DNA from: Bacteroidetes bacterium OLB10
GTDB taxonomy: Bacteria; Bacteroidota; Bacteroidia; AKYH767-A; OLB10
Length of the DNA: 64,000 bases
Reading direction: 5' to 3'
NCBI GenBank assembly: GCA_001567275.1
Contig: LNBX01000011.1
Coordinates: forward strand, 1 to 64,000
Below, piece by piece: positions 1 through 15,550 of the stretch. Position numbers and translations under genes: made by a program. Numbering within the stretch: position 1 is the stretch's first letter; every line of letters starts with the position of its first letter. The notes beneath the pieces were generated by a model. The model was not told the DNA's origin. It saw nothing but the letters and a program-made list of their open reading frames with translations, and did no database searches.

Positions 1-69
1 CAACACAAGCGACTTATTCCATTCACAGCGGGTAAACAGTTTATGGCACCTGTGGAATTTGACAAATAA
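1..69 (+). CDS. C-terminal end of an unidentified upstream gene (partial)
   Basis: The frame is open from the first base and ends at a TAA at 67-69, encoding 22 residues that finish APVEFDK. Only the tail is present, so neither family nor function can be named. The stop lies 16 nt before the Argonaute start with no room for a promoter, so the missing gene is probably the first visible member of the same operon. It could therefore be an effector or guide-processing partner. Confidence 0.55.
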   Translation, partial: QHKRLIPFTAGKQFMAPVEFDK

Positions 70-85
70 CGTATGAAAGTTCATC

Positions 86-2140
86 ATGGCCCAATCGCTT
101 CAACTCAATATCATTCCTTTTTCAGCCCCTGTGCAGGAGGCTGAATTTGCTTTTTATACCGAAAGGCAGGAAGGATATTGCCCCATTCATAAAGACGATT
201 TAAACGGAGCCATTGAAGGATTGGTAGATGAAAGCGAATTGCACTATGGCAATTGGCTTTATACTGATTTTGGAGCACCAAAAGAAAACGCCATCATCAT
301 TTCGGTTGACCTTACCGAATGTAAATACTTTGCCCAGCACTATTACAGGCATTTAATCCGCAATCATTTCAAAGGCGTTGCAGACATCATGCGGAAGAAC
401 TTCACCAACGAAATTGAAGTTTGGTTTCACAACCCGAAAGCCAGCAATGCCAAATTCAAAGTGTACAATCAGTTTACACTGAAAGTGCAGCACAACCGTG
501 TTACCGATGGTCCCGAACTGGTAGTTTCATTTGATGGAACAACCAAAGTGCTGAACAAGAGCATTACCGAAATTCACAACTTCAAAACGGAGCTTTACAA
601 CTGGATAAACTGCAATGGAGAACTGAACCGATGGAAATACCTCACCGATGAACAGAAGCTCAACCATGAGCATAACTATCCGGTGGTGAGCAACACATTA
701 AAGCCCCACTTCGATATTGCGTTTGATGTACCGGATTTCAAAAACCGTTACCCAAAGTATTTTACCCTGCTCAACGACTTTTATAATAACTACCTGAATA
801 CAGAGGATTTTAGAGCAATCCTGCCACTTTCAGCAGACGGATTTTTCAAGCCCAACGGGTTGTCGGTACAACGCATTAACGGCACATCTAACGAATTACA
901 GTTTGGCAAAGGCGTAGGCGTTGAGCCTAAAAGAGATTTACGAAAGCTGAAACCATATAAGCCGGTTCCCCAACCAAACAATGTAAAGTTCTTTTTCATT
1001 TACCATAAGCCCGACAGAGAACAGGCAGTTAAAAGCATTTGGCAATACCTGAAAGATGGGTACAATGGGCAGTATCCTTTTCCGAAAATGGAAGAGTATA
1101 TCAGCCAGCCTTTTGAACTGGAAGAAAACGGCAGCATTGCATTTGATAACATAGACGAGGCCGTTTCAGTGGTGCAGAAAGCGATCAAGAATAAAGACCG
1201 CCTACCCGATACCAAATACTTCGCCATCTATGTAAGTCCGGTTCCCAAGTGGGAGAAAGACCCTAAGCGAAACAGTATATACCACCGCATCAAAGAAATA
1301 CTGCTGTATGAAGGCATTACCTCACAAGTAATCTGGAAGGAGAATATTGCCAAGCCTGCTTTCAATTTATTCTTGCCCAATATTGAAACCGCAATATTAG
1401 CCAAGCTGGGTGGTGTGCCCTGGCGACTCAAAAGAGATACCACGAATGAATTGATTGTAGGTGTAGGAGCTTTCTATTCCATCACCAAAAAGTCCAAGTT
1501 TGTAGGTTCTGCATTCTGTTTCAACAATGAAGGCATCTTCAAAGGCTTTGATTGCTTTGGTGCAAATGATACAATCAGCATAGCAGGTTCAATAAGGGAG
1601 GCAGTAGGCAAATTCATTGCATCCAATTACAGAGCCACAAGGCTTATTATCCATTTTTACAAAGACCTGAGCAAGAAGGAGCTGAAACCAATTGTTGACA
1701 CCCTCCATGCCTTAGGCTTGCCAATACCGGTAATTGTAGTAACCATCAATAAGACGGAGAGCAAAGAATTGTTGGCATTTGATACGAGCAGTCAAAAACT
1801 CATGCCATACAGCGGAACGATTGTGAAAGTAGGTGCGAAAGAATACCTGCTCTTCAACAATACCCGGTACGAGGAAACATCTGCACCAACCGACAGAGAA
1901 CACCATTTCCCGGTGAAGATTTCATTTTTTAGCGACAAAGCAGAGTTGTTAGAAGATCCTGAATTGATAAACCAACTCATTGACCAGGTGTATCAGTTCA
2001 GCCGAATGTACTGGAAAAGTGTAAGCCAGCAGAACCTGCCGGTAACAATCAAGTACCCCGAAATGGTGGCTGAGATTTTCCCCCATTTCCAACACGACAA
2101 ATTACCCGACCACGGCAGGGAGAGCCTGTGGTTTTTGTAA
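86..2140 (+). CDS. Long prokaryotic Argonaute (pAgo), predicted catalytically inactive
   Basis: 684 aa, complete. Prokaryotic Argonautes bind a short nucleic-acid guide and use it to find complementary target DNA or RNA. The C-terminal third reads as MID-PIWI. A MID 5'-phosphate pocket motif is visible around Y399, K403, Q414 and K418 (IYHRIKEILLYEGITSQV). The PIWI entry motif AKLGGVPWRL lies at 439-448, and the protein ends in the hydrophobic C-terminus LWFL typical of Argonautes. The first catalytic Asp of the DEDX tetrad should follow the first PIWI strand, but here it reads VGVG (G461). The third Asp is plausibly D527, and the fourth position is E659 in KYPEMVA. Loss of the first Asp predicts no slicing. 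Residues 1-380 hold the N-terminal and any PAZ-like region, without a motif I can name. ATG at 86 follows the previous stop closely. GC is about 45% by eye, higher than the downstream genes. PIWI identity is firm; assignment to the inactive long-B type is inference. Confidence 0.9.
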   Translation: MAQSLQLNIIPFSAPVQEAEFAFYTERQEGYCPIHKDDLNGAIEGLVDESELHYGNWLYTDFGAPKENAIIISVDLTECKYFAQHYYRHLIRNHFKGVADIMRKNFTNEIEVWFHNPKASNAKFKVYNQFTLKVQHNRVTDGPELVVSFDGTTKVLNKSITEIHNFKTELYNWINCNGELNRWKYLTDEQKLNHEHNYPVVSNTLKPHFDIAFDVPDFKNRYPKYFTLLNDFYNNYLNTEDFRAILPLSADGFFKPNGLSVQRINGTSNELQFGKGVGVEPKRDLRKLKPYKPVPQPNNVKFFFIYHKPDREQAVKSIWQYLKDGYNGQYPFPKMEEYISQPFELEENGSIAFDNIDEAVSVVQKAIKNKDRLPDTKYFAIYVSPVPKWEKDPKRNSIYHRIKEILLYEGITSQVIWKENIAKPAFNLFLPNIETAILAKLGGVPWRLKRDTTNELIVGVGAFYSITKKSKFVGSAFCFNNEGIFKGFDCFGANDTISIAGSIREAVGKFIASNYRATRLIIHFYKDLSKKELKPIVDTLHALGLPIPVIVVTINKTESKELLAFDTSSQKLMPYSGTIVKVGAKEYLLFNNTRYEETSAPTDREHHFPVKISFFSDKAELLEDPELINQLIDQVYQFSRMYWKSVSQQNLPVTIKYPEMVAEIFPHFQHDKLPDHGRESLWFL

Positions 2141-2173: not shown

Positions 2174-5100
2174 ATGATACTGAAACTACACTACGCAAAT
2201 CGTCTTAGAGAAGTGCCCTATGCGGTTCAGTTAATCGAATCAATGAATGGCAATGAGATAGAAACAACTTTTCTAAATTTTGGTATCGAACAGGGAAGGG
2301 AGGCCAACACATATGCAATTCAAATTCCACACCCAGTCAAAGAAAATGTAACAGTTCAGTTTCGTGGAATGCTGACTAATAATAACTCCTTTTCAATTTT
2401 TCTCTTTAAAGAATTAGATAATGCAATACTCTCAATTGATGAGTCAAAACAATTAAAACAAAGGTGTACTATTGAATACCTTCCAAGGCCTGATCAAACA
2501 AGAGATAAAGAATTTATCAGATTTACATTTGAGTTGGAGGAACTGCCTGTAACAAAGGTTGTATCGAAGGTGGAAAGAGAAACTCAGATAAAAATATGGG
2601 AAACTTACATTAGAGCCATCAAAGCACTCTTCAAAAATCAAGAAGATCTCTTTAAGATATTGGATATAAACGAGCCTAATAAAGATATAATTGATGTCAA
2701 AATTGAAAAGGAAGATTGGAAGAAAATACTAATTAGTGAATTAGGTGAACAATTTCCTCAATTCCCTCTTATAAAAGATTCAAAGGGGAAGTTTGAATTT
2801 GCTTTTGATACAGAGGAATTGCAGAATGAAGATGGCCAAAATGAAAACAGCATTCAAACGGATACAAAGGTTGTATTGGAAACAATTTCAGAAACTGTTA
2901 CTGATAATTTTTTCAAGATTAATTCAAAACCACAAATTGTTTCAAGAAGTTTTATAAAGTTAAATTTTCTAAGCCGGGAAGAAAAAATAAAAGTAGCTTC
3001 TGATATATTGGATGAAATAAAATCTTTAGACCCCAACGTAGAAGTTAAAATCACTGAAAACCTGTCAGTAGAGATTCAATTGGAAGACATACAATTGCTT
3101 AATTCTGTTATTTCCAATAATTATCCAAATCTGAGTGTTAGTCCAATAAACGCAGTCTGCGAGTATGAAATTTCTCAACCAAGTATTGACAGTGAATCAT
3201 TTTGCAAAGGGATTATTGAAAAGATAACTTCTCCTGGAAATTCTTACAAAGCAATTCCTTTGGACAATTTTACCACTGTTACCATCACTCCAGACAGGGG
3301 ATTTTTAAACAAAGAAAACTTTCAATTTTTCGAATCAAATAATTTACGGCTTTCGAAAATACAGCAATCACTAACATTTCAATTTGGTAACAACTTGCCT
3401 GAAATTGAAGGCACTATTTTAGCTGGCAAAACTTATAAGTATGAAGGTGATTTAAATTTCATAAGGAATAAGTCAGAGGAGATAAAGAAAAATGTGAATC
3501 AGAAGTTCCAGGCAAACACCAGCTATATATTTACAGTAATGTTGCCTAAGGTTGATACTCATAGGCTAAATCGAGAGGTCACACTAGAACTGTATAATAA
3601 ACTTGGTATTAAACCGTCTCAAGGCAAACCAGAAATAGCATTCAGTTCAAATTTCGATGAGTATGAGAAAAAATTTAGTACCCTTCACGAAATTCTCAAT
3701 AACCATAATGTTCTATTAAGAAATCCCAAAACTTTAAGCCTCTACATAAAACAGAAAATAGATGATGAAAGTGAGCTAAAAGAACTTATTGAACGGAATG
3801 TGAAGAAGCCATTGGTTTCTGAATACTTGAATAATGTCAGAGTATTTTATAATTCCGAAAGGCAGCTTGTAGAAATGGAATGGTCAGAAACTTATTCAAA
3901 TCAACAATTGCTTAAATCCGTACAAGAATTAATAATGGCGGAACATACGAAACAATTTATAAGGCAGGATTCAAAGGCAGAGATAAATCAAATTCTGAGA
4001 TTTGATGCTGAACTCGATTTGGCAAAAGTTGAAGATTTTGAAAGGAATAGGCAAAGAACATTTACTGGTAAGGGTTCTGCCTTTTTACTTGATGGGGAGC
4101 AGGCTGCTGAGTTTGAGGCAAGTCGAAATCTTTTATTAGATGAAGATTATGGGACTCTTGTAGGAAACATAGATGATTGGCAAAGAAACCGCATTTCTAT
4201 AAGCGTACTTCCTCCATTATTGAAAGCCATTAAGCAGGATTTACCTTATTTTAAAAATGATAGGAATCTTGCTGATATTGAGGAGTGGATAGGTAGTTAT
4301 ATCAAGCCGACATTATCTGGCGACCTAACGCAAAATAGACGTTTGCAATATGCAATTGAGAGGGTACTTTATCCTACTCAACCTTTTAAGAGAAGTAGAA
4401 AGAATAAATTAACACTTTTCAATCAAAGGCTTCCTGAGTTTATATTTGATGCTTCTCAAGCAAGACCAATTTCTGATGATGAGATGAGTAAGACAGATGC
4501 GAATCTCAATACTCTAAATAAATTAAATCCTAAACAAAGAGAAGCGGTTGTAAAAGCATTAAATGCTAAAGATTTATTCATTCTGCAAGGTCCTCCCGGA
4601 ACAGGTAAGACTACTGTTATTTCCGAGATTATTTTCCAACTTCTCAAACGTAATCCTAATACTAAAATACTTCTGACATCGCAAACGCATTTGGCGGTCG
4701 ATAATGCATTAGAAAGATTAAGCGGTCAAAGCATAGTTAAGCCGTTACGTTTGGGAACTAACCCAGATAGTTTTGAGGAAGAAGGCTTGAAATATTTTGA
4801 AGGGAATATCGAGCAATGGGTTAAAGCACCAACCAAAAGCAAAGAGGAGAAAGCATCTGAGATGAATCCAGTTTATATGTGGATTCATAATATCATTAAT
4901 TCGTCAGATAAAAATAATCAAGAGCTGCAACCAACTTTAAACAAATGGCGTGATGGCCTTTTGAATCTTAGCATAAGTGATAAGGAATTATTCAAGAATA
5001 AATTTAAATATAATGTGGTAGGTGCCACATGTAGCTTTACAGGCCATGATAAAAAGTTTTTAGAAAAGCTTGAAGTTCAGAAAAACGGATTTGATTATGT

Positions 5101-6058
5101 TATTTTCGATGAAGCCAGTAAAGCAACTCCACCTGAGTTATTAATACCCTTATTAGCAGGTCGCACATTAATTGTTATTGGTGATCATAAACAGTTACCA
5201 CCGATGATAGAGGAGGATAGTTTTGCCGAGAAATTAAAAGAGATCGGTGAAGAGAAACTTGCAGAGGAGATTGCTGATGCTGAAGTGGAAAAATCTCAGT
5301 TTGAGAAGTTGTTCAGAAATGCATTTGAATCCAATAAAAGTATCATTACTACTTTGGATACTCAATTTCGAATGCACGATGATATTATGCAGTTGATAAA
5401 TCAATTCTATTTGGAAGAGGGCGGACTTAAATGTGGTTTGGATAATGAGAGGTTGGATATAAAAGATTTTAATGAAAAGGAATCAAGGCATCATGGTATT
5501 AAGGTTGGGAATTTTCTTGACCATGAAAATCATGTATTATGGATTAATACAACTTCACTTGAACAGAGGAGTGGTAATTCATTCTATAACACGGGGGAAA
5601 TTTCAGCAATAGACAAGCTATTGAGTTTGATTAAAAGATCAGATGGTTATCAAAAATTAGTTAGCCATTTTACAAAAGAGGAAGAGAAGGAAATTGGTCT
5701 AATTACATTTTATGGTGAACAAAAGAAAAAATTGAGAGAGTTGGAAAAGAGGCACAGTGATTTATCTCTAAGAATTAATACAGTCGATAAATTTCAGGGG
5801 ATGGAGAGAAATATTGTTATTATTTCAACTGTTCGTAACAATGAAAAAGGAAGTATAGGTTTTGCAGAAAAACTACAGCGTATTAATGTAGCTTTATCTC
5901 GGGCTAAGAGGCTTTTAATAATAGTTGGAAACCTTGATCATTTTTCCTACAATAAACTTGGAGTGCCTTATTACAAGGAGATCGAACGAGTTTTAAAAAA
6001 TAAGGGTGCAATTCGTGATGAAAAACAACTTTCAGAACTAATGAATGAGATATTATGA
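2174..6058 (+). CDS. Large Upf1/DNA2-like superfamily 1 helicase
   Basis: 1294 aa. The C-terminal 500 residues are a complete SF1 helicase: Q-like motif LNPKQREAV (about 785), Walker A GPPGTGKTT (about 806-814), motif Ia TSQTHLAVDNAL, motif II FDEAS (about 975), motif III GDHKQLPP, an LDTQFRMHD segment, DKFQGMERNIVI (motif V) and NVALSRAKRLLII (motif VI, about 1239). This is the COG1112-like/Upf1 type, which acts on RNA or DNA with 5'-3' polarity in characterised relatives. The first 780 residues show no motif I recognise and may hold a partner-binding module. The gene starts 33 nt after the Argonaute stop, and its TGA overlaps the next ATG (ATGA), so it is translationally coupled to the PLD protein. 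GC is low (about 32-35% in sampled lines). Helicase identity is firm; the defence role is inferred from neighbours. Confidence 0.9.
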   Translation: MILKLHYANRLREVPYAVQLIESMNGNEIETTFLNFGIEQGREANTYAIQIPHPVKENVTVQFRGMLTNNNSFSIFLFKELDNAILSIDESKQLKQRCTIEYLPRPDQTRDKEFIRFTFELEELPVTKVVSKVERETQIKIWETYIRAIKALFKNQEDLFKILDINEPNKDIIDVKIEKEDWKKILISELGEQFPQFPLIKDSKGKFEFAFDTEELQNEDGQNENSIQTDTKVVLETISETVTDNFFKINSKPQIVSRSFIKLNFLSREEKIKVASDILDEIKSLDPNVEVKITENLSVEIQLEDIQLLNSVISNNYPNLSVSPINAVCEYEISQPSIDSESFCKGIIEKITSPGNSYKAIPLDNFTTVTITPDRGFLNKENFQFFESNNLRLSKIQQSLTFQFGNNLPEIEGTILAGKTYKYEGDLNFIRNKSEEIKKNVNQKFQANTSYIFTVMLPKVDTHRLNREVTLELYNKLGIKPSQGKPEIAFSSNFDEYEKKFSTLHEILNNHNVLLRNPKTLSLYIKQKIDDESELKELIERNVKKPLVSEYLNNVRVFYNSERQLVEMEWSETYSNQQLLKSVQELIMAEHTKQFIRQDSKAEINQILRFDAELDLAKVEDFERNRQRTFTGKGSAFLLDGEQAAEFEASRNLLLDEDYGTLVGNIDDWQRNRISISVLPPLLKAIKQDLPYFKNDRNLADIEEWIGSYIKPTLSGDLTQNRRLQYAIERVLYPTQPFKRSRKNKLTLFNQRLPEFIFDASQARPISDDEMSKTDANLNTLNKLNPKQREAVVKALNAKDLFILQGPPGTGKTTVISEIIFQLLKRNPNTKILLTSQTHLAVDNALERLSGQSIVKPLRLGTNPDSFEEEGLKYFEGNIEQWVKAPTKSKEEKASEMNPVYMWIHNIINSSDKNNQELQPTLNKWRDGLLNLSISDKELFKNKFKYNVVGATCSFTGHDKKFLEKLEVQKNGFDYVIFDEASKATPPELLIPLLAGRTLIVIGDHKQLPPMIEEDSFAEKLKEIGEEKLAEEIADAEVEKSQFEKLFRNAFESNKSIITTLDTQFRMHDDIMQLINQFYLEEGGLKCGLDNERLDIKDFNEKESRHHGIKVGNFLDHENHVLWINTTSLEQRSGNSFYNTGEISAIDKLLSLIKRSDGYQKLVSHFTKEEEKEIGLITFYGEQKKKLRELEKRHSDLSLRINTVDKFQGMERNIVIISTVRNNEKGSIGFAEKLQRINVALSRAKRLLIIVGNLDHFSYNKLGVPYYKEIERVLKNKGAIRDEKQLSELMNEIL

Positions 6059-7902
6059 AAAACAAATTCGCAATACAAGAAGTTGCCAAACAATATAATA
6101 TCTCACCTCAGGAGATAATTGATTTTCTCAATGATAAAGGTGTTTCCGTTGATTTTGGTTACCAAAAAATAGTTGATCCAAGAATCATACGAGACCTTGA
6201 AAAGGAGTTGGTGAACAGAAACAAAAAGCTGCCATTGCTTTATATTTCTGAAGCGGATATTGAGAATTTTAAGCCAGTTACGAAGCCAATTGAATTTTGG
6301 CAAGATGCTAATATTCCAAACCTTGAAAAATTAATATACAAAACACTTTCATTTGAAAAACCTAAATCGGAGAAGATTGTAGGCTTAACTCCATTCAATT
6401 GGAAATTTGTTAAGGCAAAATATAATATTAAATACTCAGTAGGTCTGAACTTCACTTTATTTGAAGACACTATTTGTGAAATTGTAAAAATTAAACCAGG
6501 AATAAGTGTTTTGGATATTTGCCAATTGTTGGGCTTTGGTAATGACCAAGAGATTATATCAGAAACTGTAAAAGGGTTAAAAACAGATGATATATTAAAG
6601 GTTGATGACAGTGGTTTTTCTTTGAATTTAACCGAAAAGGGTGCAGTTGATATTCAGAGAAAGCAAAAATCTAAACCGGCTACGAATGCTTTTTTTGACC
6701 TGTTCATAGATTTTTATAACCCCTCTAATGTTCATGCTAAAGAAATATTTAGTCATTCAAAATCACATAAAACCAAACCTGCTGACATCTTAATCACAGA
6801 TTTCGAATTAATTAAGAATTTAGCAGAATTTCAGCAGCCAACTTATCAGTCATCAAAAAGCGGATATATTTTACAAGAGGCTGAGTTGATTAAGGATTCT
6901 GTTACTTTTTTTGAAAGCAGATTCGTTGCGATTGTGACAGAGGATTTGGAGAACAATGTTCAAAATAAGATTTGGATATTTGATCCCTACAAGCGTGAAA
7001 TCTCAAAACAATTAACTAAGACTGCATCTGAGAATACAATTCTATATAGCTTAATTACTGAAAAGCTTTATGGTGAATTAAAAGAAACAGTCTTTGAATC
7101 TGTAGAAAAAGATCAGGAACAAATTGCTTTTGACAATTTACTGGTTACTGCAACTAAAGAAAAGTCATCCAAAAAATCAATTCCCTTACAGTTTCAGCAT
7201 TTTTTGTCACCAGACAGTTTGGATACGGTGCAATTTGAGGATGAAATGGAACGTCTTTTTGATGTTGTACAAAAGCAATTGTGGCTTATTTTCCCTTTTG
7301 CAATGGGATATATTATTGAGAAAAGAATAAGGTTAATTGAGAAGGCAATAAAGAATGATTGCAGTGTTTTTGTGTGTTTTAGTCAAAATGAGAATAAAGA
7401 ATTTGGGGCTAAGGCCGTAATTGATAAAAAGGCACTTGAGATATTCAATAAGCTGGCGAATAATAATGAAAGATTTTATTACGCTGAATTACCAAAGTTT
7501 CATGAAAAAAGGGTTTTTGCATTTCTTGATGATAACCTCAAATGTGAATACTCCGGTAGCCACAATTATTTATCATTCTTCGTTCAAAAGACAGCAAAAG
7601 GTGTTCGTAGAGAAAATATGCAAAGGTTGATATGGTCTGAAAATTCAGCTAAAGAATTAGCAGTGCGTAGGAATGAATTTGCATTCTCATATTGCGAAAG
7701 AATATCTGATGAGTTAGATGCGGATATTCAATTGCTAACAGCGTTTTCAAAAACCGACTTAAAGGGAAGGTCAGAGTATTATAAAAAGCAGTTAAAAAAG
7801 ATTAAGGAATTTTCAACCATTTTGACAGATCAAGAAATGAGTTTTGCAAACGTAATCAGCTTGCTTGAAAAAATGGATCAGTTTATTCAGAAAAATAAGT
7901 AA
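6055..7902 (+). CDS. PLD-family nuclease-like protein with N-terminal IF2_N-like helical domain
   Basis: 615 aa. The N-terminus (about 1-50, VAKQYNISPQEIIDFLNDKG) resembles the short helical domain at the start of initiation factor IF2, which is also used as a nucleic-acid or docking module. The middle has wHTH-like text (about 140-200) but nothing firmly nameable. The C-terminal part carries a single phospholipase-D type motif, HEKRVFAFLDD at about 483-493, followed by the GSHN signature (YSGSHNYLSFF, about 501-511). Canonical HKD is HxKxxxxD; here the Asp is two residues further away, so activity is not certain. One HKD per chain suggests a dimer, as in Nuc and BfiI. The start overlaps the helicase stop by 4 nt. 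A paired Upf1-like helicase and PLD nuclease recalls Mokosh-type defence. PLD assignment is moderate. Confidence 0.7.
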   Translation: MKNKFAIQEVAKQYNISPQEIIDFLNDKGVSVDFGYQKIVDPRIIRDLEKELVNRNKKLPLLYISEADIENFKPVTKPIEFWQDANIPNLEKLIYKTLSFEKPKSEKIVGLTPFNWKFVKAKYNIKYSVGLNFTLFEDTICEIVKIKPGISVLDICQLLGFGNDQEIISETVKGLKTDDILKVDDSGFSLNLTEKGAVDIQRKQKSKPATNAFFDLFIDFYNPSNVHAKEIFSHSKSHKTKPADILITDFELIKNLAEFQQPTYQSSKSGYILQEAELIKDSVTFFESRFVAIVTEDLENNVQNKIWIFDPYKREISKQLTKTASENTILYSLITEKLYGELKETVFESVEKDQEQIAFDNLLVTATKEKSSKKSIPLQFQHFLSPDSLDTVQFEDEMERLFDVVQKQLWLIFPFAMGYIIEKRIRLIEKAIKNDCSVFVCFSQNENKEFGAKAVIDKKALEIFNKLANNNERFYYAELPKFHEKRVFAFLDDNLKCEYSGSHNYLSFFVQKTAKGVRRENMQRLIWSENSAKELAVRRNEFAFSYCERISDELDADIQLLTAFSKTDLKGRSEYYKKQLKKIKEFSTILTDQEMSFANVISLLEKMDQFIQKNK

Positions 7903-7909
7903 ATCTACG

Positions 7910-8524
7910 ATGAGCAAATCACTTCCAATAAAGCACCTATCAGCAAGAGTACCTTGGCATGACAATAAATGGAATGGCAAAACCTGCTGTAGTGTTTTGG
8001 ACAACTCTTTTTGCAGAATATTGCCTCGTGTTGATGCTACAAAGAACCCTGATACGGAATCTTCCGACAAAACGATAACTGAAGAAAACTTTCCACCCTG
8101 CATTTCAGAGAAAGGCACTTTCCTTTCTCCAAATAGCTACACAAGAGAATTAACCCATGCCTGGACTAAAATCAATCCTATGTTTAAGGATTTCAAGCCA
8201 GGCATATACTTTCACAAGCCTTATTCTTTCAATGCAGTTCCGTTTTTATGGATGATGAAGAATAAGGGGGGTGACGATAATCCGCATTTTTCCGAAAAAG
8301 CACATGTTTTTGAATTGGACTATGATGCAGACTTAGAGCAAGAAGTGGATGAAAATTTAGGCTTTGAAGGTAATATTTGGGTGCAGCATCCGGCTAATCA
8401 GAAAATATTGTTAGATGCATTCTTTGGTTGTCTTAAAAAACGACAGTCATTAATATTTTTTTATTGCAAAGACACACCCTTTTCTGAACCTAACGAAAGA
8501 GTAATTGTAGGCGTAGCAAAGTGA
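7910..8524 (+). CDS. N-terminal module of the RecD-like protein (split off by an apparent frameshift)
   Basis: 204 aa from ATG 7910. An in-frame upstream ATG at 7865 lies inside the PLD gene and is rejected. The N-terminus has a distinctive ARVPWHDNKWNG motif and cysteines at 26, 27, 35 and 64 that could bind a metal. The sequence ends RVIVGVAK followed by TGA, and the next gene starts with GTG in an overlapping GTGA. Adding one A to the AAA at 8518-8520 removes the stop and gives a continuous VIVGVAKVKNEPGAILEY. My recollection is that related large AAA/RecD-type proteins carry this module at the N-terminus of one polypeptide. I therefore read 7910-11715 as one gene of about 1268 aa. If the split is real, the two parts would be translationally coupled subunits. 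Confidence 0.65.
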   Translation: MSKSLPIKHLSARVPWHDNKWNGKTCCSVLDNSFCRILPRVDATKNPDTESSDKTITEENFPPCISEKGTFLSPNSYTRELTHAWTKINPMFKDFKPGIYFHKPYSFNAVPFLWMMKNKGGDDNPHFSEKAHVFELDYDADLEQEVDENLGFEGNIWVQHPANQKILLDAFFGCLKKRQSLIFFYCKDTPFSEPNERVIVGVAK

Positions 8525-11500
8525 AGAACGAACCCGGTGCAATACTTGAATACAATTTTGATAAGGGCTACACTGGCCATAAAAGCCACCCTTGGGATAG
8601 ATGCGTTGAACATACATTAACTGCCAATAATCCTGACGGATTTCTGTTGCCTTACCATGATATTCTTGATTTTACAAAGAAGAACAACATTGAAGTTGAT
8701 TTAAAAGAGTACGCTGCTTTTGCATCTGATTATAAGCAATTTTCTTTTGCCTCTGAATTGGTTGAACACGATACGGCTATTGATGCATTGTTGAATATGG
8801 CTGAGAGTTTGAAAAAGTCGGAAGTGTTGCTGGAAAAATCTTTTAGGAAAGAGTTGGATTGGATTGATGCTGAAATTTCAGCTATCTGGGATATGAGAGG
8901 AGCATTCCCGGGAATGGGGCCCGTTTTAAGTGCATTGAATATTGAAGATGGTAACACCATCGCATGGGAGATAGAGAAATATATACTTCAGAAAGATGGA
9001 GACCTTTTGCAAACGAATCCTTGGTCAATATTTGAGGAAAGTATTATAGAACCGGAAAAGTATATTAAGGCCAGAGGTGCAAAATTATTTAACGCTACTG
9101 CACAGCGTATATGGAAAGGGAAACTTGGGAAGAAAAAAGAGTTTTTCAAGCTCATAAGCCGTTGTCAGTTGAATAATGATCAGGCAACTTTTATTATAGA
9201 AAACCATGTTGATTTAATTGGATCAACACAAGAGATTTCCGAAAACCTTTACTTGCTTTATGAAAAGACAAGATTTGAAGCCTTTGGAATTTCTTTTCGT
9301 CAGGTAGATAAAGCACTATTACCACCAGAGAAAATTCAAACAGCGTTTCCCTTACCGGCTGAAACTGCTTTAACAGATAACTTGGATGAGAAAAGAGTAC
9401 GGGCATTTTCAGTATTCATTTTAGAAGAAGCAGCAGCAGAAGGTCATTCATTATTGCCATTTGAGGAAGTGTTGGAACGAATGAAGACGAAAGCAATGGA
9501 TGAGAGTTTTCCTATTGATGAGGATATCCTGACCACTCAATCAGAAGAAGAGTTTTTTATAAAGGAGATTACATCTGTACAGCCAAGCAAATCAAATCCT
9601 ACTCTGTTTCTCAAACTGCAACGTTTGGCAGAATTAAAAACAATTATCAGACAGCGTTTAAATATCGAGCAAATTGTATCAAAGCCATACAACATTGAAA
9701 AGGACTGGCTAAAGCTTATTAATAGCCATAAGAAATTTCCATCATTAGATCCGAATAGTCCTGACTATGCAGATGAAATTGCTGCAAGAAATGAAAAGGC
9801 AGAAGCATTAAATGTTTTGACCAATTACAAATTCTCTGTGTTAATTGGCCCGGCTGGTTCTGGCAAAACATCTTTGCTGGAAATTTTTGAGAGGCAGGAT
9901 GAAATAGTCCGGGGTGGTGTATTGAAATTAGCTCCTACAGGTAAAGCAAGAGTTAAATTAGGGCATGACGCCAAAACAATTGCTCAGTTTCTATATCCTG
10001 ATAGGTATGATGCAATGACTGGCACCTATTTCATTAATGAAGACGCAGGGAAAAGTTCATCTGCAAAGAATATCATTATTGACGAGGCATCAATGCTAAC
10101 CGAGGAACAATTGGCAGCATTGTTTGATGCTTTAGGTCCCGTTGACAGGATCATACTGGTGGGTGATTACAGACAGTTACCACCAATCGGTACAGGAAGA
10201 CCTTTTGTGGATATAGTAAGTGAGATTAAGCCAAGGACATTTGAAAAGGCGAATATTTTTTCAGGTCCTGGATATGCAGAATTGAAGAAGATAAGACGAC
10301 AAAGCAATACAGATGATTTCCGTTGGGATGTTGCATTAAGTCGTTGTTTTAGTGATGAACCCACAAAAGAAGACTTAGAGGCATTTCATGCGATTTCATC
10401 AGGGGCAATTAAATCAGACCATATCCGGTTAGTGAAATGGTATGAGAGTAAAGATTTTAGAGAACTATTTGAGCAGGTTGTAGCTGAAGAATTACCCTTA
10501 GACAAGAATGACATAATTAAATCGTTCAACAGAAAAATTGGTGCAAAGGATGTTGGTAATTATCAATACTTCAATTACGATTTTGCGGAAAGGGAAATAG
10601 AGAAATGGCAGGTCATATCACCTGTAAATGGATACGGATATGGTGTAAAGGAAGTAAATAAGTTCTTTCAAACAACATATCGAAAACCCTTCATTGATTT
10701 GGCACTGAACATTCAGCCTGAAGGTTCCAGTTATTTTCAAAAGAGAAAGGTTGCAAAGCCTAAAGGCAATGACAACATAGTGTATGGTGATAAGGTAATT
10801 AATTTAAGAAATACCCGTTGGGAGAATTGGCAGTGGATTAAACCTTCTGATAAGAAAGCTGAAGCATTGAATTATATTGCCAATGGTGAAATTGGTGTTA
10901 TAACCGGGGAGTTCAGAGCAAAAGATGGAAGTCGAAAAGGAGAACCCAATATTGAAATTGCTTTCTCTACGCAGCCCGGCTATAGCTATGTATTTTGGGC
11001 AGATCAATTGGGGGAAGAAGGGAAATACTCATTAGAATTGGCCTATGCAATAACTGTACACAAATCGCAGGGAAGCGGCTTTGAAAAAGTGTTTTTCGTA
11101 ATGCCCTCTAAGGGTGCAATTCTAAGCCGGGAGTTACTTTATACCGCATTAACAAGACAGGAAAAGAAGATTATTATTTTGCATCAAGGCGATTTCAGAG
11201 ATTTCATCCGATTAGCCTCAACAGATGCTTCGTCAACGGCAAGAAGATTTACAGACCTATTCCATTTACCAGAGGTGAAACAGTTAAAGCAGAAATGGTA
11301 CGATGCAAGGTATGTGAATATAAGTGAGAGAGGAGAACCCATGCTGAGTAAGAATGAGGTTATTATTGCCAATTGTCTGAATAAATACAAAAGGCAAATT
11401 ACTTATGCTTATGAAGACAAATTGAAACTTGACACCTCTGACAGAACAATAAAACCTGATTTTACGATTGATAACCTCTCAACTGGCAAGCGTTTCTATT

Positions 11501-11715
11501 GGGAGCATTTAGGGATGATGACAAAAACGGATTACCGGGAAAAATGGCGGAAAAAGCTGGAGGGCTACTTAAAGGATGGATTTGTTTTGCATACAGAAGC
11601 CAAGCCAGGTGATGAAAGAATTTTGATTCTAACTGAGGAAAATCCTAATGGAGGGATAAATTCTCAGGATATTGATATAACAGTAAGGAAGTACATTTTG
11701 GAAGAGCAAGTTTAG
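8521..11715 (+). CDS. RecD-like SF1 helicase with C-terminal PD-(D/E)XK-type nuclease domain
   Basis: 1064 aa from a GTG start. The helicase core has Walker A GPAGSGKTS (about 443-451), Walker B IIIDEAS (about 519), motif III GDYRQLPPIG (about 548) and the UvrD_C_2 signature AYAITVHKSQGSGFE (about 842), followed by LLYTALTRQEKKIII. This is the RecD/TraI-like organisation. Residues about 940-1060 look like a restriction-endonuclease fold: SKNEVIIANCL, then KPDFTI (Asp about 980) and YWEHLG (Glu about 996), then K-rich helices, which is the layout of a PD-(D/E)XK site. Roles such as unwinding and degrading invader DNA follow from the families. The N-terminal 400 residues are probably continuous with the preceding 204-aa reading frame. 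This is the last gene of the operon. The helicase call is firm; the nuclease call is moderate. Confidence 0.85.
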   Translation: MKNEPGAILEYNFDKGYTGHKSHPWDRCVEHTLTANNPDGFLLPYHDILDFTKKNNIEVDLKEYAAFASDYKQFSFASELVEHDTAIDALLNMAESLKKSEVLLEKSFRKELDWIDAEISAIWDMRGAFPGMGPVLSALNIEDGNTIAWEIEKYILQKDGDLLQTNPWSIFEESIIEPEKYIKARGAKLFNATAQRIWKGKLGKKKEFFKLISRCQLNNDQATFIIENHVDLIGSTQEISENLYLLYEKTRFEAFGISFRQVDKALLPPEKIQTAFPLPAETALTDNLDEKRVRAFSVFILEEAAAEGHSLLPFEEVLERMKTKAMDESFPIDEDILTTQSEEEFFIKEITSVQPSKSNPTLFLKLQRLAELKTIIRQRLNIEQIVSKPYNIEKDWLKLINSHKKFPSLDPNSPDYADEIAARNEKAEALNVLTNYKFSVLIGPAGSGKTSLLEIFERQDEIVRGGVLKLAPTGKARVKLGHDAKTIAQFLYPDRYDAMTGTYFINEDAGKSSSAKNIIIDEASMLTEEQLAALFDALGPVDRIILVGDYRQLPPIGTGRPFVDIVSEIKPRTFEKANIFSGPGYAELKKIRRQSNTDDFRWDVALSRCFSDEPTKEDLEAFHAISSGAIKSDHIRLVKWYESKDFRELFEQVVAEELPLDKNDIIKSFNRKIGAKDVGNYQYFNYDFAEREIEKWQVISPVNGYGYGVKEVNKFFQTTYRKPFIDLALNIQPEGSSYFQKRKVAKPKGNDNIVYGDKVINLRNTRWENWQWIKPSDKKAEALNYIANGEIGVITGEFRAKDGSRKGEPNIEIAFSTQPGYSYVFWADQLGEEGKYSLELAYAITVHKSQGSGFEKVFFVMPSKGAILSRELLYTALTRQEKKIIILHQGDFRDFIRLASTDASSTARRFTDLFHLPEVKQLKQKWYDARYVNISERGEPMLSKNEVIIANCLNKYKRQITYAYEDKLKLDTSDRTIKPDFTIDNLSTGKRFYWEHLGMMTKTDYREKWRKKLEGYLKDGFVLHTEAKPGDERILILTEENPNGGINSQDIDITVRKYILEEQV

Positions 11716-11740: not shown

Positions 11741-11820
11741 CCTTTTTAGGGCATTCCCCTTCGGGTCGCGCTTTCCGCTACAATCTTTTACTGATAGCAA
11801 AAGGATTTCCGCTTCAATCC
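11741..11820. repeat. Repeat-like intergenic element with two near-identical 14-mers
   Basis: TTTCCGCTACAATC (11772-11785) and TTTCCGCTTCAATC (11806-11819) differ at one base and lie 34 nt apart. A CCCCTTCGGG hairpin stretch precedes them at 11757-11766. The segment directly follows the operon stop at 11715. I have the impression that similar text recurs between genes in Bacteroidota, which would make it an interspersed palindromic repeat or a 3' structure. No poly-T terminator was found. Confidence 0.45.
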
Positions 11821-11859
11821 CTAATGCAAAGAAAAGCGGTGTTCGTTCCTCACGAATTT

Positions 11860-12800
11860 ATTGAACCCACCCGGCCAACGCACAAGCACGGCTTATGCAG
11901 TGGCTAACCCACAAAGCCAACCCTTCCACTGCATCTATGGTGTTGCCGCCATTTTTAACTGTCATACTTTTTGTGGCTATGCTCCCCACGCTTTTGGCAC
12001 ATTGCCTGTTCCGCTTCGCTACACAGCCAAAGAGCCAAGCCAACCCAAGCATAGCAACAAAAAAGCCGCTACACTCCAACCACCACCACCGTTTCGCTTA
12101 TGCCAGTATAAAAAAATGGCGGAAGCATACTTAAACATAATGCGGTCTTATGTGTTCGCTTCGCACAGCCACCCCCCGCTTATGCAAGCATCCCAACGCA
12201 GTGGCTGTCACATAAGTCGCCATTATGTTAAGTAGCCAACACCATAGCACTTTTTATCAAAAGTGAAGCCGTGCTTCTGCCAACGCACCCCACCCGAGAC
12301 CCACGACACCCCGCCACCCTTTCAGCGGTGCAGTAAAAAAATAAAGCATGATTTGTTTTACGGCTATGTGATTGCGGTAGATTCATTCACTTCATCTCCA
12401 TTCCGTTCAGGCGTTTCGTTCATTCCGCTTTGCTTCATTCACTACACTATCCTTCACTGCATTTCGCCTACGTTCATTTCACCAACCTCAGCACCGCACA
12501 GCAAAAGCAATTCCTTCTCTTCATTCCGCAAAGCCAACACACAGGCTTCCGTGTCATGGCGTTTGCTTAACCCACGCTACAATAGCTTTTGTTTTTTGAA
12601 AAGTTACAAAAGCTGCCAACGCTTCTAAGCAAACTGCTCATGCCACTCCAAGCCACCAACCCGATTTGCTCCATTCCGTTCAGTCATTGCATTTGCTCTT
12701 GCCCCACCGCACGATTGAAAGCGGTATGCTTTATTTTTTCCTGCGAAGTGTTTACCCCAGCCGACCCACGAAAGCCATCATCGGAATACTAATACGGTTG
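11860..12800. other. Gene-free, C-rich/G-poor accessory region
   Basis: About 940 bases without a believable gene. The plus strand is strikingly richer in C than in G, with long pyrimidine stretches and recurrent CATTC/CATTCCG words (12380-12530). The decamer GCCAACGCAC recurs at about 11873, 12279 and 12928. An 11-bp inverted pair, AAGCACGGCTT at 11884-11894 and AAGCCGTGCTT at 12266-12276, brackets a nested hairpin. Several open frames cross the region on both strands, but their translations are low-complexity and unlike any family, so none is annotated. It may be mobile-element debris, a structured RNA, or a transfer or replication origin region. Confidence 0.5.
12135..12228. repeat. Nested inverted repeat (potential long hairpin/cruciform)
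   Basis: The outer arms 12135-12154 and 12209-12228 are complementary over about 16 of 20 positions (ACATAATG...CTTATGTG against CACATAAG...CATTATGT). The inner arms ACAGCCAC (12165-12172) and GTGGCTGT (12201-12208) are perfect. Coordinates were worked out by hand from the sequence. No function is assigned. Confidence 0.6.
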
Positions 12801-12912
12801 AAATGAGATGCTGTGAAAAGACTACAGCGATTGATATTTCTTTCTCTAAATAAGGAATGCAGATAAGGAGGATTTGATTGAAAAAAATAAAAATAAAAAG
12901 TGCAGCAAAGTT

Positions 12913-13060
12913 AGGTGGCTGGCACAGGCCAACGCACTAAAAAAAACCAAAAGACTACGGCATAATGAAAGGCAAATAAGCTGTTTATTTTTATAAGGTA
13001 TTTGCCTTTCACCCTTCGGGACTTATTCCGTTTCCTTTTGGTTTTTTAGCCACGCCACCT
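12913..13060. repeat. Palindromic element copy A (multi-tier inverted repeat)
   Basis: Three nested inverted repeats. The outer pair is AGGTGGC (12913-12919) and GCCACCT (13054-13060). The middle arms of 25 nt lie at 12941-12965 and 13023-13047 (ACCAAAAG..CGGCATAA against TTATTCCG..CTTTTGGT). The inner perfect 12-mers GAAAGGCAAATA (12967-12978) and TATTTGCCTTTC (12999-13010) complete it. Both 25-nt middle arms recur exactly in copy B at 13701-13725 and 13754-13778. The two copies flank the 141-aa gene. Confidence 0.75.
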
Positions 13061-13183
13061 GTGGGATTGCTTTCTTTTTTTTTCTGTTTTTTTTCTTTGT
13101 CAAATTATATATGTGCTGCGGAGCGTAAGCGAAGCAGGACTGAGGCAAAGGCTTAAAACAGGCTCAAAAATTAAGCACTCATT

Positions 13184-13609
13184 ATGCACAGTCCGAAGTT
13201 TCAAACTTACAGCGTAAAGCATCAAAGCACAGGTTTTGAATTTTACATTTTATCGAAAGGGTTAAACAGTGGTAAGCCTCTGGTAACTCCATGCCCCAAC
13301 TCATTTGTTTGCATCTGCAAAAGCCAGGAGCAGAAAGATTTTTATTTCTGGTTGCTGTTTGGCTTGTGGAAGGCAAAACATTTTCATCAGTTTCTTACTG
13401 GTTCCGTTATACCGTTTATTCGTTTATCAGATTTGAAAGATGAGGTTTTCAATCAGGCCGAGAAAGTGAGTAAGCAGGAAAAGGAGTATAAAAGCACAGT
13501 AGATAAAATCAAGCAGCTTGAAGAAAAGGAAAAAGCCATCCGGCAAAATCTTGCTTTAATCAATGATTTGAAAAGGGCAATGATTTACCGGCATCTAAAA
13601 AGCAAATAG
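13184..13609 (+). CDS. DUF6943-like small protein of Bacteroidota accessory elements
   Basis: 141 aa, starting at ATG 13184. The first 85 residues (KHQSTGFEFYILSKGLNSGK, CPNSFVCIC, YFWLLFGLWKAKHFHQFL, GSVIPFI) match the pattern I associate with DUF6943, a family of unknown function that I recall from Bacteroidota integrative elements. The last 50 residues are a charged, probably coiled-coil tail (KQEKEYKSTVDKIKQLEEKEKA). The gene stands alone between the two palindromic elements, 123 nt after copy A and 29 nt before copy B. No enzymatic motif is seen. The family name rests on recollection of the sequence pattern; that it is a real gene is likely. Confidence 0.65.
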   Translation: MHSPKFQTYSVKHQSTGFEFYILSKGLNSGKPLVTPCPNSFVCICKSQEQKDFYFWLLFGLWKAKHFHQFLTGSVIPFIRLSDLKDEVFNQAEKVSKQEKEYKSTVDKIKQLEEKEKAIRQNLALINDLKRAMIYRHLKSK

Positions 13610-13638
13610 TAAGGCTGACCTAAACATGATGCTGCACC

Positions 13639-13824
13639 GTGCATAAATAAATTTTGATGTGCAAAGGTAGCATGGCGGGCAGACGCACAAGCCCGACCTA
13701 AAAAAACCAAAAGACTACGGCATAAACACAGACCCACCGCACAAGGCTATCATTTATTCCGTTTCCTTTTGGTTTTTTTATCCGCCATGCAGAGAGATGC
13801 ACATAAAATTTATTTACTATGCAC
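13639..13824. repeat. Palindromic element copy B (multi-tier inverted repeat)
   Basis: The outer arms are 13639-13663 (GTGCATAAATAAATTTT then GATGTGCA) and 13798-13824 (TGCACAT then AAAATTTATTTACTATGCAC), complementary apart from a two-base insertion. Next are CATGGCGG (13671-13678) and CCGCCATG (13782-13789), then the 25-nt arms 13701-13725 and 13754-13778, identical to those in copy A. The whole 186-bp unit is close to one imperfect palindrome. Confidence 0.75.
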
Positions 13825-14023
13825 AAGCATCCTCGTATCAGTTCCGGCAGCCATTCAGGTATTTGCCCATTTACTCCGCAGGTTCTCCATCAGCACTTGC
13901 CTTTGTCACCCTTTGCGTTTCAGCGTTACATCCGCAGGTCATCCTTAGCCCATCAGCCAGTTTTTGGCATCAAGGTTTATCGGCTTCCTTGTGGCTGCTA
14001 TGTTTGGCGTTATCCTTCGGGTG

Positions 14024-14084
14024 TTCGTGAGCTTTCAGCATTGCCCTTTTAGGGGCTTTGCTGAATTGCGGAAGCAATCACGAA
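14024..14084. repeat. Three-tier hairpin
   Basis: TTCGTGA (14024-14030) pairs with TCACGAA (14078-14084), TTCAGCA (14034-14040) with TGCTGAA (14059-14065), and GCCC with GGGC in the core around TTTTA. The 200 bases before it (13825-14023) hold no believable gene. There is no T-tract on either side, so it is not an ordinary terminator. Confidence 0.55.
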
Positions 14085-14121
14085 TACCATATTTTAGAAA
14101 ATGAGCAGAACCATGAGTAAA

Positions 14122-14150
14122 AGAAAAAGCCCCACCAAACTGGTGAGGCT
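14122..14150 (-). terminator. Rho-independent terminator of the 249-aa gene
   Basis: On the minus strand, AGCCTCACC, loop AGTTT and GGTGGGGCT form a near-perfect stem followed by TTTTTCTTTT. It lies 28 nt after the stop of the gene at 14179-14928. Confidence 0.85.
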
Positions 14151-14178
14151 ATTTCCTAACTGAAAGAAAGAACAGCGT

Positions 14179-14928
14179 TTATGCTACTTCAACAATGTTC
14201 AACACGTTGTAAGCACCGTTTTTGAGAGAGTACTGAACTCCGTTCACTTCCTGGAAGAACTCAATCAGCATCAGGTAGAACTTAGTTCCAGTTCCGGCAG
14301 GTACACCGGCAGGAGTAAGAGTTACAGGTGTGTTGGTTCCGTCAATAGGAAGATTGGTGACCGGGCTGTACTCAATTGCACTGGTTCCGTTGGTGAAGTC
14401 AACAACTGCATACGCAGACTTGAAGCTCACATGAGTTGCACCAGACGGATATGCAATATCATTGATCGGAATGAAGGCCGGAATGTTGATTGCTCCGGAT
14501 ACACCTGTTACGGTGAAGGGAGCAAAAAGAACACCACCCAAAGCTGCACTGTCATTGAAATCAAAATCTTTCAACAGAGCCAATGCCGCAGGGTCAGCAA
14601 TACCAATTGCTACAGTACGTTCACCCCTTGGAGATGTAACGTCATAGTTTTTAATCTGCGTCATGATTTGGGTTAAACGACTGGTAACACGATTGTCAGC
14701 AGCGTTCATCATGAGGTTACGGACAGCGTTGCGAAGCAACTTGCCGGCAGTTGCAGAACTGCCAAACTCAGCTCCGTTTTCACGGGTACGCTGGAAGTTC
14801 GGGTCATTTGCAATACGTTCAGCAGATACGCCACCTTTGGTTTTTACCAAGTGACCATCTTGTGTTTTGTAGAAGGTTAGCTCATCCAGAGTGCCTTCAA
14901 TTTTGAGAATACCTTTAAGTTTTGCCAT
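14179..14928 (-). CDS. Unknown 249-aa protein, monocistronic
   Basis: I do not recognise a function. The N-terminus is strongly patterned (MAKLKGILKIEGTLDELTFY, GHLVKTKGG, DPNFQRTRENGAEFG), and I recall similar starts in uncharacterised Bacteroidota proteins. Residues 60-90 are helical and Arg/Asn-rich. The remainder is Ala/Gly/Thr/Val-rich with a beta-strand look (GVLFAPFTVTGVSGAINIP, NGTSAIEYSPVTNLP), as in structural or carbohydrate-binding proteins. There is no signal peptide or membrane segment. A strong promoter and a terminator bracket it, so it is an independent and probably well-expressed unit. GC is higher than in the defence operon. It could be a surface or phage-like structural protein, but there is no direct evidence. 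Confidence 0.8.
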   Translation of the reverse strand: MAKLKGILKIEGTLDELTFYKTQDGHLVKTKGGVSAERIANDPNFQRTRENGAEFGSSATAGKLLRNAVRNLMMNAADNRVTSRLTQIMTQIKNYDVTSPRGERTVAIGIADPAALALLKDFDFNDSAALGGVLFAPFTVTGVSGAINIPAFIPINDIAYPSGATHVSFKSAYAVVDFTNGTSAIEYSPVTNLPIDGTNTPVTLTPAGVPAGTGTKFYLMLIEFFQEVNGVQYSLKNGAYNVLNIVEVA

Positions 14929-14994
14929 TGCTTTAAACTTTTTATGAGTTAGTAAATTTGTTTCGACTGATACGCTTTAATCAGATTACGAAAA

Positions 14995-15026
14995 CAAAAT
15001 TAGAAGCACTCTAAAGCCTCTGCAAA
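14995..15026 (-). promoter_or_regulatory. Bacteroidota-type promoter for the 249-aa gene
   Basis: On the minus strand, TTTG (15023-15026), a 20-nt spacer and TAATTTTG (14995-15002) match the Bacteroidota -33/-7 pattern TTTG and TAnnTTTG. It lies 66 nt before the ATG. Confidence 0.7.
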
Positions 15027-15099
15027 TGAGCCGTGCCATCTGTGCCGATTGTTCCGCATTATTCCAACAAACACACTTTTACCGCCCTTAAAAAAGATT

Positions 15100-15107
15100 T
15101 ATATTTG
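15100..15107 (+). promoter_or_regulatory. Candidate -7 element for the 62-aa gene
   Basis: TATATTTG matches TAnnTTTG and lies 68 nt before the ATG at 15176. The -33 position carries only TTTT, so support is partial. Confidence 0.4.
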
Positions 15108-15175
15108 CAATGTCACTTTCATATTTGAGGTATATCATCGGTATGGTTAGTGTATGAAGTTGAATAATTGAAATA

Positions 15176-15364
15176 ATGAATAGACTGTGCATTTATCCGA
15201 AAGACATTCAGGTAATCACAGGCAGAAGCGACAGGTATGGTAGAAACCTTATTAAGAAGATCAAGGACCATTTCAACAAGCAGCAGCACCAGGTTGTTAC
15301 TGTTGAAGAGTTCTGCCAGTACATGGGCTTGCAACCGGAAACGGTTGTCAAGCAACTTCGATAG
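15176..15364 (+). CDS. Small 62-aa protein, possible DNA-binding/excisionase-like
   Basis: The sequence MNRLCIYPKDIQVITGRSDR and the ending VTVEEFCQYMGLQPETVVKQL follow a pattern frequent in short Bacteroidota proteins of unknown function. The second half reads as a helix-turn-helix-like EEFCQYMGLQPETV segment, as in excisionase/MerR-type domains, so DNA binding is plausible. It stands alone between the 249-aa gene (divergent) and the polyene operon. The function is not known. Confidence 0.65.
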   Translation: MNRLCIYPKDIQVITGRSDRYGRNLIKKIKDHFNKQQHQVVTVEEFCQYMGLQPETVVKQLR

Positions 15365-15550
15365 GTTGTAACCTTATCTTTGCTTTTGCTTATGATAAGG
15401 CACAGCACACTCTCAACTCAACAACTTTTTTTTCCTTTCTTTGTTGGGTAGTTTCCTTTGATAATACAGCCTTTGTTGGCTATTTGTTGCCCAATTAGCT
15501 GAAAGCCTTGATAATTAAGGGTTCAATATTTTTTGTATCGGAAAATAAAT
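15365..15550. other. Intergenic boundary between accessory and polyene regions
   Basis: 186 bases with no gene. CCTTATC (15371-15377) and GATAAGG (15392-15398) form a short stem without a T-tract. No tRNA or direct-repeat attachment site was found that would mark an island end. Confidence 0.5.

Follow-up and report, generated by a model that had tools for sequence, protein, structure and literature searches.

A putatively inactive long-B Argonaute of Bacteroidota among changing restriction and BREX neighbours

The usual view of inactive long-B Argonautes is that each acts via a single dedicated toxic effector. The window analyzed here (a stretch of 64,000 nucleotides at the start of contig LNBX01000011.1 of Bacteroidetes bacterium OLB10) carries an Argonaute gene at its left end, followed on the same strand, with short gaps, by a helicase gene, a gene with a PLD-type motif and a split gene for a RecD-type helicase (Table 1). 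Is this Argonaute catalytically inactive, and if so, is its effector encoded next to it? The original prediction, made from the sequence of the window, was that it binds guides without slicing and that the downstream nucleases are the obvious effector candidates.

Catalytic positions and guide pocket of the Argonaute

The intact 684-aa ORF matches the Pfam Piwi family at residues 394–664 (E = 2.7e-15) and the PADLOC pAgo model PDLC02385 over the whole protein (E = 1.7e-278). It is the sole Piwi match in the host genome. The nearest solved structures by sequence and profile are AfAgo, EcAgo and RsAgo, and AfAgo is the best sequence match among them. An AlphaFold model built from 20 clade members (mean pLDDT 81) was compared with known structures by Foldseek. 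RsAgo, Siwi, CbAgo and TtAgo were matched over their full length; the highest query TM-score (0.68, over full length) was found for RsAgo, which was compared via solved-structure searches only. The length of 684 aa and the full-length model match to RsAgo, Siwi and CbAgo may point to N, PAZ/PAZ*, L1 and L2 regions ahead of MID-PIWI.

The protein was aligned with TtAgo (plasmid pTT27), four other DEDD Argonautes, its own clade and other inactive Bacteroidota Argonautes. The five active enzymes show D-E-D-D at the tetrad positions. TtAgo D478, E512, D546 and D660 fall on G461, I497, Y525 and E659 of the window protein, in agreement with the predicted Gly at the first catalytic position and Glu at the fourth. 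The exact register of I497 is uncertain because a loop deletion adjoins it; as the glutamate finger falls on this residue, the counterpart of TtAgo E512 is also missing. Among 30 clade rows (two loci counted twice), Gly occupies the first position in 29 and Tyr the third in 29, while Glu predominates at the fourth, where some relatives have Q, S, A or K. The third Asp had been placed at D527. TtAgo D546 (LLLRDG) pairs instead with Y525 (IIHFYK), which lies in a stretch, H523-F-Y-K526, that all members of the 20-sequence set share. D527, two residues off, pairs with TtAgo R548; this position is D in 18 of the 30 rows and L, S, E, T, Q, R, P or A in the others, which rules it out as a retained catalytic residue. 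Since the third position is Y525, the window Argonaute keeps no catalytic Asp. All four positions are changed, and changed across the clade, so the inactivity is more complete than first claimed and is inherited within the clade.

In the MID domain, TtAgo R418, K422, Q433 and K457 correspond to Y399, K403, Q414 and K440. The AfAgo alignment agrees and pairs K440 with AfAgo K163. This YK-type pocket is invariant in the 20 aligned clade sequences. Three of the guide residues named at the outset (Y399, K403 and Q414) therefore stand. The fourth, K418, has to be replaced by K440; position 418 varies among relatives (K, S, A, F, Y, R or V). With the pocket intact, guide binding is likely. Guide binding without slicing, as predicted, is well supported at the sequence level by the four changed catalytic positions, the intact MID pocket and the nearest solved relatives AfAgo, EcAgo and RsAgo.

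Table 1. Features of the Argonaute locus in the OLB10 window
Feature	Position	Strand	Basis
End of HigA-type antitoxin, IrrE-like (Peptidase_M78) domain, last 22 codons and stop	1..69	+	Identity to L043; Pfam
Predicted catalytically inactive long-B prokaryotic Argonaute, 684 aa	86..2140	+	Pfam, PADLOC, alignments, tree, structure model
MID domain (approximate limits), 5'-guide pocket Y399, K403, Q414, K440 intact	977..1435	+	TtAgo and AfAgo alignments
G461, first catalytic Asp position (TtAgo D478)	1466..1468	+	TtAgo alignment
I497, glutamate-finger position (TtAgo E512), beside loop deletion	1574..1576	+	TtAgo alignment
Y525, third catalytic Asp position (TtAgo D546)	1658..1660	+	Alignment; invariant in 20-sequence clade alignment
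D527, third Asp of the original prediction; two residues off, variable	1664..1666	+	Alignment
E659, fourth catalytic position (TtAgo D660)	2060..2062	+	TtAgo alignment
SF1 helicase (Upf1/IGHMBP2-type, MkoA-like), gene 2	2174..6058	+	Pfam AAA_11/AAA_12; PADLOC MkoA E = 4.7e-119
MkoB-like protein, PLD-type motif H483-x-K...G500-S-x-N, gene 3	6055..7902	+	PADLOC MkoB E = 8e-6; motif search, alignment
N-terminal 204 aa of PDC-S68 protein, split by frame change	7910..8524	+	PADLOC PDC-S68 positions 3-195
Rest of PDC-S68 (1064 aa), RecD-type helicase	8521..11715	+	Pfam AAA_30, UvrD_C_2; PADLOC PDC-S68 positions 201-1219
Right flank, mostly non-coding	11747..15548	.	blastn, 83-95% DNA identity to same side of other Argonaute loci
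Flavo-1 RNA in right flank	11760-11832	-	Rfam RF01705, 54.1 bits

Relatives and constraint

Relatives were taken from 28 genome loci and from the loci of a 395-genome phylum search. Copies were found at 95%, 93%, 93%, 72% and about 60% identity, with others down to about 35%. The viral contigs searched gave no relative, and the plasmids searched gave only distant partial matches (21–25% identity). In a maximum likelihood MID-PIWI tree with few reference sequences, the window clade is split from the five active Argonautes at 100/99 and groups with other inactive Bacteroidota long-B Argonautes; deeper placements, including the position inside long-B, are unsure because of several long branches. 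Three long-B features (clade grouping, absence of DEDX and a YK-type MID pocket) were found, and the window protein is, judged by its sequence, an inactive long-B prokaryotic Argonaute.

NG86 dN/dS is 0.037–0.079 among the closest copies and 0.031–0.038 within the L047–L052 group. Values of 0.03–0.08 indicate strong purifying selection, so the gene is not decaying and a pseudogene is ruled out. The tetrad had been described as degraded: the loss holds, at all four positions, while the implied decay does not, as the loss is clade-wide and the gene is constrained. Broken or truncated copies occur in L055, L069 and L070 (153+456 aa; 127 aa), so the gene has also been lost in some lineages. One further locus (L041:7252-7626) has a stand-alone 124-aa fragment with 53% identity to residues 573–684, the C-terminal PIWI part only. 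Compared with the Argonaute DNA of L043 (10001-12055), the window gene is 97–100% identical in the first 700 bases; later 100-base blocks are mostly at 79–98%, and one near the 3' end is at 59%. This pattern suggests mosaic alleles and recombination inside the gene.

Genes around the Argonaute

The contig begins 85 bases ahead of the Argonaute start. These bases are identical to L043 at 83 of 85 positions, where they form the end of an intact 363-aa gene whose product matches Pfam Peptidase_M78. The higA remnant agrees with that protein in 22 of 22 residues and ends 16 bp before the Argonaute. A search of the host genome for the rest of higA found nothing beyond the 22 final residues at the start of the window, and the contig-start DNA has no second copy in the rest of the assembly. 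As only the end of higA is present, an assembly gap interrupts the operon upstream. An hsdR gene near the end of contig C44 is 98% identical to that of L043; hsdM and part of hsdS come after it, arranged as they are in L043. By comparison with L043, the simplest reconstruction would be hsdR-hsdM-hsdS-higB-higA-ago with a gap of ~1.9 kb.

On the downstream side, the helicase-PLD pair is also found in genomes G218 and G226 with two other genes and no Argonaute match. The two loci, L100 (4523-13066) and L101 (5159-13261), encode an MkoA-like helicase, a PLD-like protein, a 209–212-aa protein and a 533–534-aa protein; they are a candidate four-gene system without Argonaute. The 533–534-aa protein is an AAA ATPase in L100, the one locus tested. 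The PLD-like protein of L101 has lost the motif and carries additional sequence at its C-terminus. The PDC-S68 homologue of the window lies in two overlapping frames (204 + 1064 aa), split at 8521, which may be a real break, a programmed split or an assembly error. The C-terminal segment of the larger product looks nuclease-like by eye. The closest relative of the S68 gene (L102, 76% identity; intact and unlinked to Argonaute in G194) is a single 1269-aa ORF on a contig apart from that genome's Argonaute. The right flank is shared with L044, L047, L051, L052 and L060, from genomes labelled as several families, and may be a shared insertion site or the end of a mobile element.

Across the clade, flanking genes on both sides differ even between Argonautes that are 93–95% identical. 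Clustering of the immediate neighbours, 22 loci each, sorted the -1 genes into 15 families and the +1 genes into 17, so that one conserved downstream effector, the feature of BPAN, BPAS and BPAM, was not found in these 22 loci. The same clustering procedure recovered recurrent +1 partners in sister long-B loci (three 291–295-aa proteins, a 345–431-aa group, and a 375/422-aa pair common to L026 and L037), and a fixed partner of the window clade is therefore unlikely to have been missed; this control tests partner recurrence and does not amount to a full background rate of restriction genes in the vicinity of Argonautes.

Most loci have restriction, BREX or Mcr-like genes upstream of the Argonaute, usually directly before it. 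L043 and L044 have hsdR-hsdM-hsdS-higB-higA in common upstream and differ downstream (TmtA-like vs AraC-like). The Argonaute of L054 is nearly identical to that of L044, yet it is located behind BREX brxC-pglX-pglZ-brxA and before a 2584-aa gene. A type I hsdR precedes the Argonaute directly in L057 and with one gene between in L047 and L050. Type III Mod-Res genes are found upstream in L056 and L031, type IIG-like methylases in L052, and McrB-like AAA genes in L032 and L033. The upstream gene is at most 30 bp from the Argonaute start or overlaps it in 20 of the 22 clustered loci; the genes at this place include HigA/IrrE, RhuM, YhcG/DUF1016, S68, Abi_2, Fic, RES, PP2C, BrxA, HsdR and Res. The distant subgroup L034, L035 and L036 has an upstream 431–460-aa protein with a helix-turn-helix-like C-terminus (those of L034 and L035 cluster together, that of L036 is weakly similar), which is a possible DNA-binding partner. 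An assembly or binning artefact behind the changing neighbours is unlikely, since loci whose titles name a strain or isolate (L050 Algoriphagus, L054 and L065 Sediminibacterium, L058 Jiulongibacter, L064 Gelidibacter, L067 Polaribacter) are equally variable. Part of the context similarity may merely reflect the clustering of defence genes in islands.

Possible roles and comparison with known systems

We favour, at somewhat better than even confidence, the explanation that the dead long-B Argonaute interferes by guided binding to DNA, which it does not cut, and that it belongs to restriction operons as an accessory gene with no fixed effector. Like RsAgo and EcAgo, it would load small guides with a 5' phosphate, and it would bind matching invader DNA. 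The bound protein would then block replication and transcription of the invader, or alternatively leave its DNA exposed to nucleases of the host operon; no single dedicated effector would be switched on. The variable neighbours may also be compatible with each neighbour working with the Argonaute, or with a partner encoded elsewhere in the genome. A more specific proposal, which we hold only tentatively and consider rather improbable, is that of a partner-agnostic targeting subunit of modification-based operons (type I, III and IIG restriction, Mcr-like, BREX). Such a subunit would add guided recognition or memory, with guides loaded, for example, from restricted DNA or invader transcripts, and the resident nucleases would finish the invader.

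The view that the Argonaute senses invader DNA and activates the downstream helicase-PLD pair and/or the S68 nuclease, which would make this an abortive system of the BPAN kind with a novel effector, is unlikely. The gene order and strand in the window and the PLD-type motif of gene 3 fit it, as do a further Upf1-type helicase, only distantly related, that follows the Argonaute in L047/L065, an S68 homologue ahead of it in L048/L053, and the PLD partners of active haloarchaeal Argonautes (PMC11442185). However, orthologues of 93–95% identity have other flanking genes, with none of the helicase, PLD and S68 genes; the helicase-PLD pair exists without an Argonaute match in two genomes; and S68 is intact away from Argonaute elsewhere and split in the window. 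A fixed downstream effector would probably have shown up, as the recurrent partners of the sister loci did. The choice of the downstream nucleases as effector was thus not upheld. As the Argonaute sits in ever-changing restriction operons with no single partner, the adjoining nucleases probably constitute defence modules of their own, with the Mko-like helicase/PLD pair and the S68 gene stacked in the same island.

It is also doubtful that the effector is the toxin-like gene directly upstream, different by locus (HigBA, RhuM, Fic, RES, Abi_2, YhcG nuclease or S68), with the Argonaute serving as an interchangeable sensor by which that gene's product is released or restrained. That gene is usually within 30 bp of the Argonaute start, many of these genes belong to toxin-antitoxin or Abi-type families, and the YhcG-Ago (L050/L051) and S68-Ago (L048/L053) pairs are kept while the rest of the locus differs. 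Other loci, however, have a core subunit of a restriction or BREX system (HsdR, Res, BrxA) in this place, L067 has no co-directional neighbour, and no shared interaction domain was identified. Slicer activity kept via alternative acidic residues (D527 and E659, for example) is very improbable: the former is acidic in most near relatives and the latter in most of the clade, but D527 is off the tetrad and can be L, S, T, Q, R, P or A, the first Asp is nearly always Gly and the glutamate finger is missing. A decaying, functionless gene that is passively carried would fit the truncated copies in three loci, but it is hardly credible given the low dN/dS between intact copies and the MID pocket invariant in 20 of 20 sequences. 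The Bacteroidota clade is conserved and constrained, yet it has no fixed effector. If there is indeed no dedicated effector, a dead Argonaute would here be used in a different way, in which guided recognition may be coupled to restriction. An Argonaute effector should not be named from one neighbourhood.

Long-B Argonautes without the tetrad have been described, and their associated orthogroups include HsdS, type III restriction and RND-transporter genes (PMC6299218). BPAN, BPAS and BPAM carry fixed effectors, and other long-B Argonautes were labelled 'other' or 'none' (PMC10620215). Like the window protein, these three systems (EcAgo-bAgaN, GbAgo-bAgaS, EaAgo-bAgaM; PMC10620215) have an inactive long-B Argonaute with guide-binding residues, and in them RNA-guided DNA recognition triggers effector toxicity. 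They are two- or three-gene operons with one co-evolving downstream effector, whereas the flanks of the window clade vary by locus. APAP combines an active Argonaute with the PLD partner AgaP and requires an intact DEDX tetrad, which the window Argonaute has lost. The genes downstream of the Argonaute match the models of Mokosh (MkoA/MkoB) and the PADLOC candidate PDC-S68, gene 2 matching MkoA at E = 4.7e-119 and gene 3 MkoB only at E = 8e-6; they are neighbours and not parts of the Argonaute, and related pairs exist without it. AfAgo (AF1318) is inactive and has the same Y-K-Q-K pocket, but, unlike the window Argonaute, it consists of a truncated MID-PIWI chain whose partner is a separate N-L1-L2 protein (PMC10954474). 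RsAgo (Rhodobacter sphaeroides long-B; 5awh, 6d8a) shares the long multi-domain fold (model TM 0.68), an inactive PIWI domain with Gly at the first Asp position, the YK-type MID pocket and the long-B affinity; in the structure alignment the two proteins are about 15% identical. A single predicted nuclease is encoded next to RsAgo (PMC10620215), whereas the window clade has no fixed neighbour. Within the literature searched, the seemingly new point is that members of one conserved clade, although nearly identical, move between restriction and BREX operons that are unrelated to each other.
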